DNA of 57,044 nucleotides from Acidobacteriota bacterium (lineage in GTDB: Bacteria > Acidobacteriota > UBA4820 > DSQY01). The stretch lies in assembly GCA_040752915.1 (NCBI GenBank), contig JBFMHB010000010.1:1-57044 (forward strand), read 5' to 3'. Position numbers and translations under genes: made by a program. Positions 5,933-34,418 of the stretch are shown here, one piece after another. The notes under the pieces were generated by a model. That model saw only the letters and a list, made by a program, of their open reading frames with translations. It was not told where the DNA came from and ran no database searches. Position 1 is the first letter of the stretch. Every line of letters begins with the position of its first letter.

Positions 5933-6706
5933 TCACATCCACTCCTGATCGAGGATATCACCCCGAAGGCCCACCACAACGCGCTTCACGGGAACCTTGC
6001 GCCGGGCCAGCCGAAGGGCCTCGGAGGCGAGGTGCACGAGCCCGCCGCAACAGGGGACCTCCATCACGAGGACGGTGAGGGTGTTGATCCGCGCCTCGTC
6101 GATGAGGGACACCAGCTTTTTCAGGTAGATCTCCTGGCCGTGGTCGAGCTTGGGACAGGCCACGGCCAGGGCCTTTCCGGCCAGCCAGCGGGAGTGGAAG
6201 TCGCCCATGGCGAAGGCCGTGCAGTCCGCCGCGAGGAGCACGTCGGCCTCCCGAAAGTACGGGGCCCCCGGGGAAACGAGGTGGAGCTGGACGGGCCACT
6301 GGCGGAGGGCCGACGGGGCGGGGCCGGAGAGCGCCTCGGCCGCCGAGGGGGAAGGCCCTCCGAAGGAGAGCGTGCGGGAACCGGGACATCCCCCTCCCCC
6401 CGCGTGGACCGGTGGGGCATGGAGGGGAAGGGGCGTCGCGAAGGATGTCGCGGCGACGGGACCCGTGCGGCCCAGGTGCGCCGCCACGGCCCTTTCGTCG
6501 AAGGCTTCCGCCTCGCGCTCCTCCACGGTGATCGCTCCGCGGGGGCACTCCCCGAGGCACGCGCCCAGCCCGTCGCACAGGACGTCCGCCACGAGCCGCG
6601 CCTTTCCGTCCACCACGCGGATCGCACCTTCCGCGCAGGACGGCACGCAGACGCCGCACCCGTCGCACTTCTCCTCGTCAATATGGACCACCTTGCGCAC
6701 CGCCAT
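5933..6706 (-). CDS. ferredoxin-domain iron-sulfur protein (FrdX-like)
   Basis: A 257-aa cytoplasmic protein. The N-terminus carries two ferredoxin motifs: Cys14-x2-Cys17-x2-Cys20-x3-Cys24, and Cys43-x2-Leu46-x2-Cys49-x3-Cys53-Pro, where the second cysteine of the latter is replaced by leucine. The C-terminal domain has ADCTAFA, ACPKLD and VPCCGG motifs. This arrangement matches the family often called 4Fe-4S ferredoxin or FrdX, encoded with hybrid-cluster protein and an HcpR regulator; hcp itself is not in the window. The ATG at 6706 is preferred over one ten codons upstream because of AGGAGA seven bases before it. A CRP/FNR operator lies in front of it. Confidence 0.85.
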   Translation of the reverse strand: MAVRKVVHIDEEKCDGCGVCVPSCAEGAIRVVDGKARLVADVLCDGLGACLGECPRGAITVEEREAEAFDERAVAAHLGRTGPVAATSFATPLPLHAPPVHAGGGGCPGSRTLSFGGPSPSAAEALSGPAPSALRQWPVQLHLVSPGAPYFREADVLLAADCTAFAMGDFHSRWLAGKALAVACPKLDHGQEIYLKKLVSLIDEARINTLTVLVMEVPCCGGLVHLASEALRLARRKVPVKRVVVGLRGDILDQEWM

Positions 6707-27082: not shown

Positions 27083-27688
27083 TCACTTCACGATTTTCGC
27101 CTTCAGCGTGACCTTGCCTTCCTTGGAGGAGACCGTGAAGACCACGTCCTTGGCGCCGTACTTGGACGCGATGGCTTCCTTCTGCTTTCGGATGTGGGCC
27201 TCGAAGGCCTTGAAATCGGTCTGGGGGAGCTCCCCCGCGTCGATCCTGGCCCGAATGAATTCCTCGAACAGACTCCGGAGGGGGTCGGCCGGAGGGGCCG
27301 CCTTGGGGGCCGCCGCGGGCGGGGCCTTCCGTGGGGCGGGTTGGGGGCGCGCCAGCTCCAGATCCTGCAAGTCCTTCTTGGCCCGGCTGATGGAGCCCGC
27401 CAGCCGCGGATCCTTCACCAGCCCGTCCTCCCTGGCCCTCAGCCATTTGTTCCATTGCTCGTTGTGGAGGATGTACTTGTTCATGAAGCTCTGGAAGAGG
27501 AATTGCTGGGCGATCTTGCTCAGGCCCGATGCCGCGTAGGCGCGGGTCAGGCGGTCGAGCTCGCGGTGCTCCGCCGTGGGCGGGTCCTTGGCCCCGCCCG
27601 CGAAGAACAGATCGTACTGGTGCCGCACCACCTCGAAGAGGCGCTGCATGCGGGCCATGTCCTTCGGAAAGTCGCTCTCGCCCGGCAC
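27083..27688 (-). CDS. MXAN_5187-like protein of unknown function
   Basis: A 201-aa soluble protein. The N-terminal half is helical with conserved-looking aromatic residues (FLFQSFMNKYILHNEQWNKW). A proline/alanine-rich linker at about residues 110-133 follows. The C-terminal half ends in a helix and two strands (DVVFTVSSKEGKVTLKAKIV). This ending resembles what is annotated as the MXAN_5187 C-terminal domain; I offer that name tentatively. The start is uncertain: a GTG at 27688 with GGAG eight bases upstream, or an ATG at 27658 with AAGGA. It stands alone upstream of metK. Confidence 0.65.
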   Translation of the reverse strand: MPGESDFPKDMARMQRLFEVVRHQYDLFFAGGAKDPPTAEHRELDRLTRAYAASGLSKIAQQFLFQSFMNKYILHNEQWNKWLRAREDGLVKDPRLAGSISRAKKDLQDLELARPQPAPRKAPPAAAPKAAPPADPLRSLFEEFIRARIDAGELPQTDFKAFEAHIRKQKEAIASKYGAKDVVFTVSSKEGKVTLKAKIVK

Positions 27689-27773
27689 CTGGTGTACTCC
27701 GAGGCAAGGCTACTACGATCGCCTTTCTTTTTCCAGGCCGTAGGCGCACCCTCGTGCCGCGCCCAGCACCCTC

Positions 27774-27800
27774 TTGACAGGAGGGGGTGGGGGGTAAATT
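27774..27800 (+). promoter_or_regulatory. possible promoter for the small-peptide cluster
   Basis: TTGACA at 27774-27779 is a consensus -35. The best -10 is TAAATT at 27795-27800, with a short 15-base spacer. The transcript would have a leader of roughly 170 bases before the GTG at 27976. Confidence 0.45.
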
Positions 27801-27975
27801 CTTGCCCTGAAAAGGGCAGGAGAAGCGGTTCCCTCGGGGTCATCCGGGGCGTGGCTTCAGGAGGATGGCCGGGTAGGCCCTCGGGAGAGGCCCCTCCTCC
27901 CCGGCTTTGGAGGCGTGGCGAACCGGGAGTGTGTGTCTCCATAAGACCTTCAGGGACGCCAGGAGGGTGAGTGCC

Positions 27976-28155
27976 GTGAGCAAGAAGACGATCCGCAGGG
28001 TATCCATAAGCGTGGCATTGTGGGTCTGCTGCTCGATCTGGCTGTGGGCCATGAGACCCAGAGACACGTACATCGGCACTTGGTACGAAGGCACAATCTA
28101 CGGCGGTTGGTGCGCAGCCGACGTTCCATCGGATTGCGCGCAGGTCTTCCCGTAG
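27976..28155 (+). CDS. small membrane-anchored peptide with two C-terminal cysteines (59 aa)
   Basis: I do not recognise a family. The peptide has a basic start (VSKKTIRR), a single hydrophobic helix at about residues 9-26 that includes Cys18-Cys19, and then about 33 exported-side residues that are rich in Tyr, Trp and Gly (GTWYEGTIYGG). It ends WCAADVPSDCAQVFP with Cys46 and Cys54. The GTG start is supported by AGGAGG nine bases upstream. The composition, a leader-like helix followed by a short Cys-bearing tail, resembles precursor-type peptides such as the Bacteroidetes NVEALA family, which also neighbour six-bladed propellers. No sequence identity to that family is claimed. Confidence 0.6.
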   Translation: MSKKTIRRVSISVALWVCCSIWLWAMRPRDTYIGTWYEGTIYGGWCAADVPSDCAQVFP

Positions 28156-28162
28156 TGTTGCA

Positions 28163-28213
28163 GGAGGGGCGGAGGGGAACGATTCACGATGTCTCCTCCG
28201 CTCCTCCCTTTTT
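28163..28213 (+). terminator. intrinsic terminator or attenuator after the small peptide
   Basis: GGAGGGGCGGAGG (28163-28175) pairs with CCTCCGCTCCTCC (28195-28207) as a 13-bp stem with one G-U pair. A 19-base loop separates the arms, and the stem is followed closely by TTTTT. It lies between the peptide gene and the propeller gene and would let the peptide be made in excess. Confidence 0.65.
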
Positions 28214-28229
28214 CAGGGGGTGATGAAGG

Positions 28230-29291
28230 ATGATTCGCGAGGTCGCTCTGAGCACTTTCCTGGTGGGCATCGCTTTGGTCCCCGGCTACGCGAGACCGAA
28301 GACTCCGTCGATTTCGAGCCCTCGCGCCGTGGAGGTACACCCTCCGCCAGAGTTTCCCGTTTCCTTGGTTCCTTCCGGTAGTGGAGGGATTTGGATGCTG
28401 GACGCCCTGGGCTGCTCGGCGCTTCGAATCGACGCTTCGGGAAAGGTGTTGGGACGCATCGGTGGACCTGGCAGGGGAGACGGCAAGTTCTCCCAGCCGG
28501 GGACCATTTCCGTTGGCGACGGCCTGTTGGCCGTGGCCGACCAAAACCGAGAAGTTCAAGTATTTCAAGAACAAACGGGGAAGTTTGTGGCCCGCATTCC
28601 GGACGTGTATCTCTGCAACCCTTTCTTCGGTTTTCAGATCTCCAAGTCCAGGATTTTGTTTATTGGCCATGGGTTTGAGAGGCAGCCTCCCCCTGCGGAG
28701 GAGCCCGTCGAGGCATTGATCCTCTTCAGCAGGACCTGGAGCGATCCCACCCCCGAGATCTTGGACCGAATCGCCGTTCCGGGTTCCAAGCGCGGTGCGC
28801 TCTCGCTTCTTCCCTTCGGTTCAGGTTTCTCGACGTACTGGAAGGGACACGGCTATGCAGTGCTCAGCGCCGTGGACGGCCGCGTTTCTATCTTGGATGA
28901 AGGATTCAAGAGACGAAGAATCCATGGTGTCGGCACTTTGGAATTGCCCGATCTGTCCGCGCCCGCCCTTTCTTCCATGAGCCCCGCGGCCAGGGCGGCC
29001 CTTTGCGCGAAGACCCCTCATATTGTCGGGCTGACTCCATGGAAGGACTACCTGGGCATCGTTTGGTTCTTACCAAGACCCGGCGGCCCACAGCTGGTCG
29101 TCCGCTGGCTGGACACCGATCTTCGTTCCGCCGGAGAGAGTCCGGTTACCCTTCCTTGGGGCATCACCCAGGACGACACGATCGTGACAGCCAGCGACGA
29201 CCAGGGCCGTATTTGGTGGCTCTTGGTGCGGGTGGCGGGAGAAACGAGGTCATGGAAACTATGGGTGTCCGACGTTCGAATGGGATCGTGA
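28230..29291 (+). CDS. secreted NHL-like / six-bladed beta-propeller protein
   Basis: A 353-aa exported protein with a signal peptide at about 1-21 (ending VPGYA). The rest consists of repeated four-strand blades with NHL-like phrases: GIWMLDALGCSALRIDASGKVLGRIGG, a GKFSQPGTISVGDGLLAVAD turn and EVQVFQEQTGKFVARI. This pattern is that of the six-bladed beta-propeller group seen widely in Bacteroidota and Acidobacteriota secreted proteins of unknown function. Base composition is visibly lower in G+C than in the flanking housekeeping genes (55 of 120 bases at 28561-28680 by hand count). AGGGGGTGA gives a good ribosome-binding site; the gene ends inside the lipoprotein gene. Confidence 0.78.
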   Translation: MIREVALSTFLVGIALVPGYARPKTPSISSPRAVEVHPPPEFPVSLVPSGSGGIWMLDALGCSALRIDASGKVLGRIGGPGRGDGKFSQPGTISVGDGLLAVADQNREVQVFQEQTGKFVARIPDVYLCNPFFGFQISKSRILFIGHGFERQPPPAEEPVEALILFSRTWSDPTPEILDRIAVPGSKRGALSLLPFGSGFSTYWKGHGYAVLSAVDGRVSILDEGFKRRRIHGVGTLELPDLSAPALSSMSPAARAALCAKTPHIVGLTPWKDYLGIVWFLPRPGGPQLVVRWLDTDLRSAGESPVTLPWGITQDDTIVTASDDQGRIWWLLVRVAGETRSWKLWVSDVRMGS

Positions 29292-29785
29292 TCTCATCGG
29301 TCCTTTCCTTCGCAATCTTGTGGTCATTTGCCTTCGCCATCGGGTGCAGGCATAGTACGGCGTCCCCTTGGGATAAAGATGTGGTGCGTGAAGTGTTCGG
29401 CGCTTCGGACCAACGCTTCTACGCACTCCTCATTGTGGATGCGGGCGATTGCGCGTGTTCCTGGACGGGAGCCTACCGCGCCGCATCCTCGGCCATCAGA
29501 AGGGAAAACCTGCCGTGCTTCCTGGGGGTGGTCCTGGAAGGACAGCACCCGGATGCCAGCTCGTTTTTCAAGACCCACAGTATTTTGAACGGGTGCGGGT
29601 TTCAGGATCCTGAAGCCGCCTTCTCGACACTTCACGAACTTAGCCGTGATCAGCTTCCGATGCTCGCCGTCTGGGACAAGGCGGGCGGGTTCCCCCCGCG
29701 GCGGGTGCTCCAGATCCGAATTTCCCCGGTCGCTCGCGACCAGGAGATGGCCGGGGCCCTGGTGGCCTCTCTCCACGCCTTTTGA
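29261..29785 (+). CDS. thioredoxin-fold-like lipoprotein with a C-A-C motif
   Basis: A 174-aa lipoprotein; the lipobox is AIGC, with the acylated cysteine at about residue 28. The mature part follows a thioredoxin-like order: strand YALLIVDAGDC, then the C-A-C motif in place of CxxC, a helix, strand CFLGVVLEG, a helix (SSFFKTHSILNGCGF), then strand LPMLAVWDKAGG, where the proline may be the cis-Pro. I infer a degenerate thiol protein or scaffold; it is not a close match to any named family. It overlaps the propeller gene by 31 bases, so the two are coupled. The ATG at 29252 is an alternative, but its Shine-Dalgarno spacing is too short. Confidence 0.65.
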   Translation: MGVRRSNGIVISSVLSFAILWSFAFAIGCRHSTASPWDKDVVREVFGASDQRFYALLIVDAGDCACSWTGAYRAASSAIRRENLPCFLGVVLEGQHPDASSFFKTHSILNGCGFQDPEAAFSTLHELSRDQLPMLAVWDKAGGFPPRRVLQIRISPVARDQEMAGALVASLHAF

Positions 29786-29798
29786 GGACGGGTCGGGC

Positions 29799-32471
29799 AT
29801 GAGAAAGGCTGTCTTGTGGATCTTTGCGGGCTTGCTTCTCCCCCTTGCTCTTATCAATGCGAACGCCGAAGACGCGGCTTCTTGGTGGATCGCTCCCGCC
29901 AACGGGGGAGGACCAGCCATCCTGGCGGCACCTGGGGATCTTCATAAGCCCCAGGCCTTCGACGCCCTTCTCTGGAGGGAAGGCCGGCCTTTTCTGTCGG
30001 TCGGGAAGGGCTCGGTGCCCGAAGCCCTGGCAAGGGATTCGCTCCCTCTTGAAGTGCGGGTGGTCGGGGAGGATCTGGCGCCCCTTTCGAATCTTCTGAT
30101 CGAGTTCAGGCCATCCGACTCGCCGAATCTGCCAGAGCCCATGGGACGTGTGTTCACGAGCGCGGATGGGTCGGCTGTCCTGTGGCGCCTTCCCGGACAG
30201 TCGCTTGATGTGTGGATTGAAGACCCGACTTGGTTGCCCGCGAAGCGAACCGCCTCACCCGGCGAATGGGAAATCGTCCTGAAGACTCGCCGCACCCAGG
30301 GGTACTGGATCAAGGTCCAGGACACCTGGGGCAGGGACGTCAGCGGGGCAAGGGTCGTCGTGCCCACCTCGGCCCTGGAGAGTGACCCCTTTGCCCTTCT
30401 GAAGCCCGGCGCAAAGGAGGTCTCGGGCTGGGCCACGGACAACACGGGTCTTCTTCTCCTTCCCAATGGCGCACGCCCGAACGCGGTCTTTGTATGGGCG
30501 CCAGGCCTGGCTCTCGGAACGGTCGCGGTTCGCCCCTCGGGAAGCCGCGTCCGTCTTTCTCCGACCCAGGCGTTCTCCGTCAAACTAGCGGGATGGACCC
30601 CCTCCACCCAAGCCGTCGAAGTTCAGGGTGACTGTGTCTTCGCTTTGCCGGGGTTTCCTTCCTCAGTGCAACAATTCGAGGTGCGCTTTTCTCGCCATGC
30701 CGCGGAGGTCGCCCCGCCCGTTTACCCTTGCCGGCTGGAAGTCCGTTGTCCTGGCTACGCCACGCAGAGCGTCTACCTGGAGCGACATCCCGAACCGGAG
30801 ACGCTGCAAATCGCTTTGGAAAAGGCCATCTCTCTTCTTGTTCGTGTCACAGACGAGACCGACCGCGCCCTTCCCGGAGCGATCCTGACCTGGAAGGAGG
30901 ACGGAAGGCGGATTCGATTGGCAGCAGAAAACGACGGATCGGTTTCCCTGAAGGATCTTTCTCCCGCGCGCGTTCCGTACCGTTTCACCGTCCACAAGGA
31001 CGGTTTTCTCGAGGAGGACACCCCCCCCATTGACCCCCGGAGGACGCCTCTCGTTCATGTGCGGCTCAGTCAGGGAGCTCAGATTTCGGGGCGAGTGGCG
31101 CGGGAAGAGGATCTTCAACCCGTCGGCGGGACTCGTGGGGTCTGCGAGGCCTTGTCCGGGGACAGCTCACAAGGCCCCATCATGACGATTTCCACTCAGG
31201 ACGACGGCACATTTCGCGTATCCGGACTGGAAGGGGGGGATTACCGGCTGACCTTCGCTTCCTCCGAAGGGATCGCGGATGCCGTGGACGTTCATTTGCT
31301 CGATCGGCAAGTCGCGGACGTGGGGACCCTCCTCTTAAGGGAAAATCCCGTGTTGGAGGGACGGCTGGTCTTCCCGGAGGGCGACACGGTGCCTCCGGGG
31401 GTGCCCTTGACTCTCCGGCTCGCACAGGACTTCAAGGATGCGCTCGCGGAGCGTCCGTGGAAATCCCGTCAAACTTCCACGGGCGACAAGGGGATCTTCC
31501 GCTTTGCGGGCATCGGCAAGGGTTCGTTCTTTCTGGAGGCGCATTGGGCGGGTTGGACTCTTCGACATGGTCCGATTACCGTCGGCCGAGAGGACATTCA
31601 CCTTGGGGACATCGTTCTTCGGCGTCCCGCCGCATTGGGAGGGGTTGTGCTTTCGACCGGGTCCTTTCCTCTTGAGGGCTATCGGGTCTCCCTCAGCGAC
31701 GGACCCTTCGACATAAAGCCCAAAGTGGCTTGGCTCGCGGAGGATGGCACCTTTCGCTTTGACCAAGTGACGCCAGGCGTCCTCTTGATCTCCGTCTTCG
31801 AACCTCTCCATGCGACACCCAAAACGAGCCTCCCTGTTTCTCTGGCGGAGGGCGAAGAAAAAGAGATCCAAATTCCCCTCGAAGGCACCACACTCGAACT
31901 TCTGCTCAGCATTGAGGGAGTGCCCGCCTCGGAAGGGTATCTGGTAATCAGGCCATCCAGTCCCTTCCCCTTTCAAGGAATCCTGCAGGTTTTCGGAGAA
32001 GGGGGGAGCGTTACGCTGGGTTTGCCGCCGGGTCAAGTCCGAGGGAACGCGGATCAGGCCGGCCGCCTCGTGCTTCAAGGAGTAAGGCCGGGGCCGGCCC
32101 AAGCCCTCCTATCCCTGGGAGGAATGCGGTATCTGCAAAACGTCGTGGTCCCCGAGGGCTCCCCGGCCGCCGCTCAGTGGAATTTCCAAGGCAGAACCGT
32201 CACGGGAAGCGTGGTCGATTCGGAGGGGGCCCCAGTGTCCTCCGCCGTAATCCACGCCGGGTACTCAGGACAAGGCACCTTCCCCGGTTTCACGACCCGA
32301 ACCGATGCATCCGGGCGTTTCGAATTGGCCGGGCTGGGAGAAGGCGCGATCGTGCTTTCTGCGCGGACGGCCGATGGCCGAACGGCGACTTACGACCTGT
32401 CCCTTTCTTTCGAGGTGCCCAGCGCTCCCGTGGTGATTCGGCTGTCGGAACCCGGGCCAGGCGCGCCCTGA
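29799..32471 (+). CDS. exported protein with repeated carboxypeptidase-regulatory-like domains
   Basis: An 890-aa protein. It has a signal peptide at 1-23 (ending NANAE) and then a string of beta-sandwich modules of the CarboxypepD_reg / CNA-B-like type. These show repeats of V-x-G-x-V plus DG(T/S)FR(F/V)xGLxxGxY turns, e.g. TISTQDDGTFRVSGLEGG, KGIFRFAGIGKGSF, TRTDASGRFELAGLGEG. At least six modules are visible. No peptidase or sorting motif is seen. It starts 13 bases after the lipoprotein gene and is the last gene of the run; the next gene is convergent and begins four bases on. Likely a periplasmic or cell-surface adhesin or scaffold. Confidence 0.75.
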   Translation: MRKAVLWIFAGLLLPLALINANAEDAASWWIAPANGGGPAILAAPGDLHKPQAFDALLWREGRPFLSVGKGSVPEALARDSLPLEVRVVGEDLAPLSNLLIEFRPSDSPNLPEPMGRVFTSADGSAVLWRLPGQSLDVWIEDPTWLPAKRTASPGEWEIVLKTRRTQGYWIKVQDTWGRDVSGARVVVPTSALESDPFALLKPGAKEVSGWATDNTGLLLLPNGARPNAVFVWAPGLALGTVAVRPSGSRVRLSPTQAFSVKLAGWTPSTQAVEVQGDCVFALPGFPSSVQQFEVRFSRHAAEVAPPVYPCRLEVRCPGYATQSVYLERHPEPETLQIALEKAISLLVRVTDETDRALPGAILTWKEDGRRIRLAAENDGSVSLKDLSPARVPYRFTVHKDGFLEEDTPPIDPRRTPLVHVRLSQGAQISGRVAREEDLQPVGGTRGVCEALSGDSSQGPIMTISTQDDGTFRVSGLEGGDYRLTFASSEGIADAVDVHLLDRQVADVGTLLLRENPVLEGRLVFPEGDTVPPGVPLTLRLAQDFKDALAERPWKSRQTSTGDKGIFRFAGIGKGSFFLEAHWAGWTLRHGPITVGREDIHLGDIVLRRPAALGGVVLSTGSFPLEGYRVSLSDGPFDIKPKVAWLAEDGTFRFDQVTPGVLLISVFEPLHATPKTSLPVSLAEGEEKEIQIPLEGTTLELLLSIEGVPASEGYLVIRPSSPFPFQGILQVFGEGGSVTLGLPPGQVRGNADQAGRLVLQGVRPGPAQALLSLGGMRYLQNVVVPEGSPAAAQWNFQGRTVTGSVVDSEGAPVSSAVIHAGYSGQGTFPGFTTRTDASGRFELAGLGEGAIVLSARTADGRTATYDLSLSFEVPSAPVVIRLSEPGPGAP

Positions 32472-32475
32472 CTGA

Positions 32476-33060
32476 TCAGGCGCTCTCGCTCCCCTCGCTC
32501 CCGGCCTGCTGGTCCATGGCGAGGTTGGCGAGGCGGTCGGCCTCCACGTTCTTTTCGCGGGGCACGTGCTCGAAGACGACGGGACAGCTCGGGAGGTGGC
32601 GCCTCGCCTCGAGGTGGAGCTTCACCAGCTTCCGGTCCTTGATGCGCCATGCCCCTCGCATCTGCTGGATCACGAGGAGGCTGTCGGCGCGCACCACGAG
32701 GCGGGAGGGCCGCCTCGCCTTGGCCCGCTTGAGGCCTTCGATGAGGGCGTGGTACTCGGCCTCGTTGTTGGTGGCCACGCCCAGGGGGAGGGCGAAGTCC
32801 TCCACGCGGCCTCCCTCCGCATCGAGGAGGACGCCCCCCGCGCCGGCGGGCCCCGGATTGCCCCGGCTCCCCCCATCCGTGTGCAGGATCAATTCGCCCG
32901 TGGAACCGGACCCCACCGCGTTCTCCCTTTTCAGGGACGCAGCGAGGGTGGAGAAGAGGTCCTCGAATTCCCGGCGGCTCGCCTCCGAATCCTGGCCGAA
33001 GCCCGTGGCCTTGGCATGGCGGTAGAGGCGCCGAAGGAGGTCCAGGCGGTCCCGCGTCAC
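32476..33060 (-). CDS. ribonuclease H-like protein (RNase HI fold)
   Basis: A 194-aa protein. The C-terminal 140 residues are an RNase HI domain. ILHTDGGSRGNPGPAGAG carries the first catalytic aspartate, ATNNEAEYHALIEGLK the glutamate, VRADSLLVIQQMRG the second aspartate, and PREKNVEADRLANLAMD the histidine-replaced loop and final aspartate. The N-terminal 50 residues form a helical extension of unknown role. The start is a GTG that overlaps the upstream gene's stop by four bases. It belongs to the bacterial Rnhb-like group without the HBD motif. Confidence 0.85.
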   Translation of the reverse strand: MTRDRLDLLRRLYRHAKATGFGQDSEASRREFEDLFSTLAASLKRENAVGSGSTGELILHTDGGSRGNPGPAGAGGVLLDAEGGRVEDFALPLGVATNNEAEYHALIEGLKRAKARRPSRLVVRADSLLVIQQMRGAWRIKDRKLVKLHLEARRHLPSCPVVFEHVPREKNVEADRLANLAMDQQAGSEGSESA

Positions 33061-34232
33061 GCCTCTTCCCCCTTCCGGCCCGCGGGAGACAGAAGGGCCT
33101 CCTCGGGAGACAGCGGGCATCCCCTCAGCACATCCATGAGGCGGTACTCCCGCGTGCCCAATCCGAGGGACTCGGCGTAGGCGAGCTGGGCCTGCCAGTC
33201 CACCGACGGGTGGAGATCCCGGAACTTGTCGGACCCCGGCTCGTAGGCCCTCCTCAGCCTCGTGTTGGGGAGTCCGGGCGCCGCCTCCACGAGATCCGCC
33301 GAGGCCTGGTCGATGGCCACGGGGTCCGTGGACGCCAGGATGCCCACGTCCGGAACCAGCGGGTGGTCGGACCACGGAAGGCAATCGCAGTCGGGGGTCA
33401 TCTCCAGGAGGAAGTTCAGGAAGAGGGCCTTGCCCGTCTTGGCCCTCAGCACGCCGAAGGCCACCTCGGCCATCTTCTCGCCCAGGATCTCCGGAGCCGA
33501 GTCCCACTGGATTCGGAGGGCCCCCTGAGGGCAGTGGACGATGCAGTCCCCGCACCCCTGGCAAAGGTGCCAGTCGAAGCGCATGAGGGCCTCCTCCGCC
33601 TCCACCGCCCCGGCGGGGCAGACGGACGCGCAGGTCCCGCACAAGGTGCACTTTTCGGGTTCCTCGTAGGACGGCTTGACGTTTCCGTGCATCTGCTGCT
33701 TGGCGGCCCGGCTGCCGAGTCCCATGCCGACGTTCTTCACGGCGCCGCCGTACCCGGACGCCATGTGCCCCTTGAAGTGCGTCAGGACCACGAGGGAGTC
33801 GGCGTGGTGGGCCGCGGCCCCGTATCGAACGGACCGGAAATGCTTCAGGTGTACGGGAACTTCCACGAATTCCTTGGACGTGAGCCCGTCGGCCGCCAGG
33901 AAGGGGGCCCCCGTTCCATGAATGTCGTATCCGTGGGCGTGGGCGGCGAGGGCGTGGTCCACGGCGTTGTCCCGCGGGCCCCGGTAAAGGGTGTTCGAAT
34001 CCGTGAGGAAGGGCCGCCCTCCTCGCCGGCGGACCTCCTCCACCACGGCCCGGACGAACTGGGGACGAAGGAAGCGCGTCGTGCCCGGTTGGCCCACATG
34101 CACCTTGATGGCCACCAGGTCTCCCTCCCTCACGGTCCCCTCCCCCGCTTCCGCGTACAGGCGGGGAATGCCCTCCAGAACCGAACGGTTCCCGACGGAG
34201 CGTGAGGTCAGAAAATAGACGACCGCCGCCAT
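33057..34232 (-). CDS. DUF362-family iron-sulfur protein
   Basis: A 391-aa protein. Residues about 1-210 form a DUF362 domain (LVAIKVHVGQPGTTRFLRP, LTDSNTLYRGPRDNA, VVLTHFKGHMASGYGGAVKNVGMG). They are followed by two ferredoxin motifs, CTLCGTCASVCP and CQGCGDCIVHCP, and a C-terminal DUF362 remainder (DVGILASTDPVAIDQA). DUF362 proteins with dicluster ferredoxins are common in anaerobes and of unknown function; redox-coupled maturation is often suggested. The ATG at 34232 is preferred because GGAGG is six bases upstream. It overlaps the RNase H gene by four bases. Confidence 0.85.
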   Translation of the reverse strand: MAAVVYFLTSRSVGNRSVLEGIPRLYAEAGEGTVREGDLVAIKVHVGQPGTTRFLRPQFVRAVVEEVRRRGGRPFLTDSNTLYRGPRDNAVDHALAAHAHGYDIHGTGAPFLAADGLTSKEFVEVPVHLKHFRSVRYGAAAHHADSLVVLTHFKGHMASGYGGAVKNVGMGLGSRAAKQQMHGNVKPSYEEPEKCTLCGTCASVCPAGAVEAEEALMRFDWHLCQGCGDCIVHCPQGALRIQWDSAPEILGEKMAEVAFGVLRAKTGKALFLNFLLEMTPDCDCLPWSDHPLVPDVGILASTDPVAIDQASADLVEAAPGLPNTRLRRAYEPGSDKFRDLHPSVDWQAQLAYAESLGLGTREYRLMDVLRGCPLSPEEALLSPAGRKGEEA

Positions 34233-34330
34233 GAGGCCCTCCGTGACGGAGGCATTGTACACCCCGCGGGAGGCCTGGGCCGATAAGGTGCGGGAAAAGG
34301 CCCCAGGCCCGGCGGACAGGCCCTCCCGCG

Positions 34331-34360
34331 TTGACACTCCGCAGCCCCCCCTGCTAGAGT
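34331..34360 (+). promoter_or_regulatory. promoter of gdhA
   Basis: TTGACA (34331-34336) and TAGAGT (34355-34360) with an 18-base spacer; transcription would start near 34367, about 50 bases before the ATG. Confidence 0.65.
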
Positions 34361-34418
34361 CCCTGTCTTTGGGCGGGCCGACGTGAGCCGGCGCCCTCGA
34401 CGAGCGAGGTGAGTTCTG

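Follow-up and report, generated by a model that had tools for sequence, protein, structure and literature searches.

A run of four genes on the plus strand of the window (the whole 57,044-nt stretch of Acidobacteriota DNA that was analysed) encoded, in order, a 59-aa Cys peptide, a 353-aa propeller, a 177-aa thiol protein and an 890-aa CarboxypepD_reg protein. We judged the chances about even that this island is a horizontally acquired cassette which would serve an exported, disulfide-bonded peptide and its propeller partner. Gene content and order, recurrence, predicted folds, foreign composition and empty sites were all directly supported. No earlier description of peptide/propeller cassettes was found in the literature searched.

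Parts of the window cassette

The run was flanked on one side by g201 (27083-27688) and on the other by an RNase H-like gene (32476-33078), both on the minus strand. Its features, with the basis of each in brackets, were:

27774..27800, plus strand: possible promoter, TTGACA, 15-nt G-rich spacer, TAAATT (read from the sequence)
27976..28155, plus strand: 59-aa exported or membrane-anchored Cys peptide, C-x7-C, ending in VFP (sequence; its position matches frames in L034 (two), L035, L036 and L080)
28163..28207, plus strand: strong hairpin followed by a T-run between the peptide and propeller genes, likely a (partial) terminator (folding energy)
28230..29291, plus strand: six-bladed NHL/DUF5128-type beta-propeller with an N-terminal signal (homology, predicted fold)
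29252..29785, plus strand: ResA/TlpA-like thiol protein with a C-x-C motif (GDCACSW) and a plausible lipobox, FAIGC (sequence, predicted fold)
29799..32471, plus strand: 890-aa exported multi-CarboxypepD_reg protein (Pfam match)
27689..34418, no strand: stretch absent at the same junction in genomes G001, G002 and G005, comprising the cassette with the RNase H-like and ferredoxin-type genes (synteny)

The first-pass annotation had described an island of peptide, propeller, thiol protein and large protein, and this island proved real and recurred in other loci. The propeller, thiol and large-protein frames were open, co-directional and exported-looking, and the overlap reported between two genes was located to the propeller and thiol genes, which share 40 bp. 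Two of the three exported proteins then named, the propeller and the thioredoxin-like protein (ResA/TlpA-like), kept their descriptions; the 890-aa protein, called Ig-like, carried repeated CarboxypepD_reg domains instead (PF13620, 1.5e-34), with a sub-threshold match to Big_1. Positions 1-68 of the window, at the contig end, were a run of 68 C, probably an assembly or sequencing artefact.

Membership of the DUF5128 ‘6-bladed beta-propeller’ group was measured as a match over the gathering score of PF17170 (22.9). The window propeller had no Pfam match at E<=1, DUF5128 included. Its sister in L036 scored 28.4 bits for DUF5128, and the five propellers tested in genome G067 scored 41-47 bits. 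The AlphaFold2 model of the window propeller (pLDDT 88, pTM 0.86) had six-bladed NHL propellers as its top structural matches and also matched the B. fragilis exported protein BF0058 (4raa), and its sequence profile matched NHL/Pizza6 as well. The window copy differs from the group in its missing Pfam match; its link to the group is supported by the predicted fold and by the L036 propeller. NHL-type propellers were also seen in L039, L040, L043, L044 and L166, amid proteins with many CxxC motifs that looked like multihaem cytochromes, a context unlike that of the peptide cassettes.

Foldseek searches with the model of the thiol protein, which was moderate only (pLDDT 68), found the thioredoxin fold and gave ResA/TlpA/DsbE as top matches (E 2e-5), supporting a predicted ResA/TlpA-like protein. 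The CxxC active site was absent: the window and sister loci had C-x-C, one L034 copy read CPCWTC, and the copy in genome G253 read CVPC. As for the large protein, the best match to its family outside the family of the host was partial (641 positions, in G253). A full-length 890-aa family beyond the host's family was not accepted, most further matches being generic CarboxypepD_reg stretches.

Recurrence in the host's family and signs of transfer

The propeller and the 890-aa family occurred together in six loci of the host's family, the window and L034-L038. Full-length relatives of the propeller were found on contig C60 of the host genome (two copies, 24-25% identity), in G002 (two loci), in G005 and in G007, all of the same family, and in each relative locus an 890-aa-type gene lay downstream of the propeller (E 1e-44 to 1e-123). 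The C60 locus, L034 (G000:C60), is a second copy of the cassette in the host genome. Four loci in three other same-family genomes had the propeller and the large protein, two of them with a peptide directly upstream. The thiol gene was present in 4/6 own-family loci (the window, L036, L038 and, in two copies, L034); L035 and L037 lacked it. Since L037 had neither peptide nor thiol gene, and L053 in G006 had no propeller upstream of the large gene, the parts of the cassette are separable. Directly upstream of the L037 propeller was a gene that by eye was dihydrofolate-reductase-like. L038 was cut by the contig end; a minus-strand frame at that end (6163-6352), directly upstream of the propeller, had the tail LLVRYEKFVQNYEALVHLAAAIICWRKANVI, which we take to resemble the C-terminus of an IS5-type transposase.

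A peptide frame lay directly upstream of the propeller in the window, L034 (two), L035 and L036. In all five copies the N-terminus was hydrophobic, Cys residues were present and the end was of a hydrophobic-Pro type; most had strong Shine-Dalgarno sites. The window frame starts with GTG, nine bases downstream of AGGAGG, a good ribosome site, and has a hydrophobic stretch and the tail WCAADVPSDCAQVFP, whose two Cys bear out the Cys-x7-Cys arrangement first reported. The tails on C60 were ...CGAVSDSGCYAVDVYP and ...CGVPTSEGCDAADVYP, and those in G002 were ...CTSITIALP (C53) and ...CRVIHLP (C64, L036). Mature tails in the family were about 30 aa long, with Trp and most Cys varying. In the second C60 peptide, the ATG that had a good ribosome site (ATG-A6) was shifted by one base from the frame of the conserved part (L034 5061-5078), and the L035 peptide had no clean start codon; both copies may be off or decayed.

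The four cassette genes had a third-position GC of 0.68-0.78 versus 0.87-0.93 in the neighbours, and GC was 59.6-62.9% in 28001-32000 versus 62.5-72% elsewhere in the window, in keeping with the AT-richer island noted at first pass. Synteny was established by tblastn, tblastx being too noisy in GC-rich DNA. G001 and G002 presented an empty site, in which SAHH-MetK-g201 was followed by glutamate dehydrogenase after about 350-410 bp, and the g201-dehydrogenase junction of G005, on a contig end, was likewise empty. In the window, g201 and glutamate dehydrogenase were separated by 6.7 kb, made up of the cassette and the RNase H-like and ferredoxin-type genes. None of the twelve relatives searched gave a match to the RNase H-like protein at E <= 1e-10.

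On C60 the cassette was flanked by two copies of the uvrB 3' end, 525 bp long and 98.7% identical (L034 2577-3101 and 9535-10059), and no integrase gene was noticed between them. The seven differences between the copies argue against a simple assembly duplicate; a strain chimera in the MAG is a possible source of the duplication. Flanking genes varied from locus to locus. A defence or phage origin was set aside for lack of supporting matches, with none in the defence database.

Cys peptides beside propellers in other genomes

G253, a member of another family, repeated the order of the window cassette, its genes encoding a 71-aa peptide (eight Cys), a propeller, a CVPC lipoprotein and a 917-aa protein related to the large one. 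At four G067 loci (L128, L130, L131 and L219), propellers had Cys peptides of 62-101 aa as neighbours; thioredoxin-like genes were present at all four and AraC-type regulators at three, one of the regulators being confirmed by Pfam. One of the four loci, reached by a peptide-profile search (E 0.008), was a peptide/propeller/MauE operon. It ran AraC-type, CRPC protein, propeller, Cys peptide, MauE, Cys peptide, propeller, ResA-like. The sole MauE of the window genome lay on another contig, C41, and not in the cassette.

Short exported Cys frames were found upstream of 10/54 propeller genes versus 11/428 other genes (p 1.9e-5), the background counts being those of the retrieved loci and one pattern search. 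Outside the host's family the enrichment was 6/49 versus 8/380 (p 0.0024), and 2/39 versus 8/358 when G067 was left out (p 0.26). Since most of the enrichment came from G067, the wider link between peptide and propeller rests mainly on G067 and G253; the peptide sequences outside the host's family were very different, so common descent is unproven. Further candidate cases, L090, L092 and L180, were weaker. L092 and L180 had a peptide frame and a large protein, but their middle gene was only weakly propeller-like and they were not counted. In L220 (G325), an 88-aa Cys-rich exported peptide (1048-1314) was divergent from a gene for a 334-aa MauE-containing protein (1483-2487), and this pair lay several kb from a propeller/CarboxypepD_reg cluster.

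Proposed mechanism and alternatives

In the mechanism that we propose, the short precursor would leave by the Sec route, and outside the inner membrane the cassette's own ResA/TlpA-like protein (plus MauE in one other genome) would oxidise or shuffle its Cys pair. Binding, escorting or sensing the peptide would fall to the six-bladed propeller as its putative cognate partner, with the CarboxypepD_reg protein as a putative envelope scaffold. The peptide may have a role in cell-cell signalling or antagonism.

Antagonism in its full form, in which the peptide is a secreted microcin-like antagonist and the propeller or the large protein gives self-protection, has a small but appreciable probability. 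Horizontal movement and tandem duplication are consistent with it, as are the several different peptides per genome in G067 and the divergent mature parts that follow a near-identical leader in L034 (leader pN 0.02, core pN 0.45). However, synonymous change in the L034 core was saturated, so amino-acid change there was not excessive compared with that in the propeller. The L034 leaders were nearly identical even at silent sites, which suggests that their 5' part may have undergone conversion or recent copying. With the core saturated and the leader DNA near-identical, we make no claim of positive selection on the mature peptide. Neither a dedicated exporter nor a small membrane immunity protein was seen in the cassette, and there was no match in the defence database, which also argue against an antagonist.

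A small probability attaches to reading the short frame as a regulatory leader ORF or a chance frame, with only the propeller, the thiol protein and the scaffold as the functional unit. A profile of the four sister peptides recovered those four and not the window peptide (held-out search, E<=5), L037 was without a peptide, and the hairpin with a T-run described at first pass indeed stood directly 3' of the frame. This hairpin (28163-28207) had 16 pairs with a U-run after it and a folding energy of -37.5 kcal/mol (z -3.3), which 0/200 shuffles equalled. The equivalent gaps in two sister loci (L035 and L036), however, folded no better than shuffles, so the hairpin was rejected as a conserved part of the cassette. 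Frames of the same architecture at the same place in five own-family copies, with their mostly strong Shine-Dalgarno sites, speak for a gene, and the G067 peptides were separate genes, some located after propellers. The first-pass annotation had named the lack of any homologue at this position as evidence against the peptide and had proposed a profile search: the profile did not reach the window peptide, but four other peptide frames occupy that position in own-family loci. In an alignment of seven peptides only two Cys and a Pro near or at the C-terminus were invariant, and the window peptide, upstream of its propeller, has a hydrophobic N-terminus, a Cys pair and a C-terminal Pro. It is assigned to the group by position and architecture and not by significant sequence homology; position and architecture say that it is a real gene, sequence alone does not.

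The first-pass annotation placed the NVEALA-type peptides of Bacteroidetes beside six-bladed propellers and thiol proteins. The likeness to these, drawn at first pass, held for the short peptides but did not extend to membership: the PF14055 model of the Bacteroidales NVEALA family had no match in the window peptide at E<=1 and none in G000, G002 or G253, and membership was rejected.

The methylamine dehydrogenase (mau) system consists of a propeller subunit, a small disulfide-rich subunit, the thiol protein MauD, and MauE. There is a slight probability that a periplasmic propeller enzyme is matured in that way and has the peptide as a small subunit, structural or catalytic, and one G067 operon has all four kinds of parts together (propeller, small Cys protein, thioredoxin-like protein, MauE). 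The cassettes differ from the mau cluster in that their peptides are much smaller (the own-family tails of about 30 aa, with Trp and most Cys not conserved), in that the matches of the propeller are to NHL domains and not to methylamine dehydrogenase, and in that the MauE of the window genome lies elsewhere. Passages of one study speculate that MauE forms disulfides in the mau system, and propose that MauE/MauD homologues near candidate RiPP precursors, detected in Streptomyces with decRiPPter, modify them (PMC7794033). Those candidates resemble the cassettes in having small precursors beside MauE/MauD-type genes, but they come from Actinobacteria with different precursors, and the passages do not mention a propeller (PMC7794033). 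By analogy, the mau system together with the MauE/MauD-RiPP proposal is the nearest precedent for a small Cys product handled by such proteins. A metal-binding system like the bufferins (secreted Cys peptides whose maturation involves DoxX-type proteins) has a very slight chance: the MauE of L219 weakly matched the HvfX copper-RiPP maturation model (E 5e-5), but at 23.5 bits it was far under the cut-off of 80, and there are only two Cys in the tail of the window peptide.

The promoter regions bear on how such peptides might be switched. Four own-family peptides had TTGACA/T upstream, followed by a spacer with a homopolymer or G-rich run: G5TG6 in the window (15 nt to TAAATT), G14 in L036, A9 in L034a and A6 in L034b. 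A consensus promoter scan, which requires a spacer of 16-18 nt, did not find the TTGACA/TAAATT pair of the window, and the promoter-like site in G253 had a plain 17-nt spacer. The 3.07-Mb host genome had only five A9 sites, including the one upstream of the L034a peptide. In L036 (G002:C64), an N gap upstream of the peptide separated G14 (522-535) from G20 (612-631), each followed by CGTATCGTTTGG; the two runs look like one length-variable tract assembled twice. Such runs are no more than suggestive of phase variation of the peptide promoters or starts. We consider it improbable that the cassettes form a mobile phase-variable system for cell-cell recognition, in which homopolymer slippage in the promoter spacer or start region would switch secreted disulfide peptides on and off, each peptide being served by a dedicated thiol protein and a cognate propeller.

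Under the reading that we prefer, a transferred cassette for an exported disulfide peptide with a propeller partner, the coupling has a bearing on the propellers themselves. In the literature searched, neither a paper on NVEALA or DUF5128 nor a function for a DUF5128 propeller was found. DUF5128 propellers coupled to short exported Cys peptides and to thiol-handling proteins in a moving cassette lead to the testable hypothesis that the propeller partners a secreted peptide, and the cassettes suggest that this phylum, largely uncultured, is a source of small disulfide peptides that has yet to be explored.
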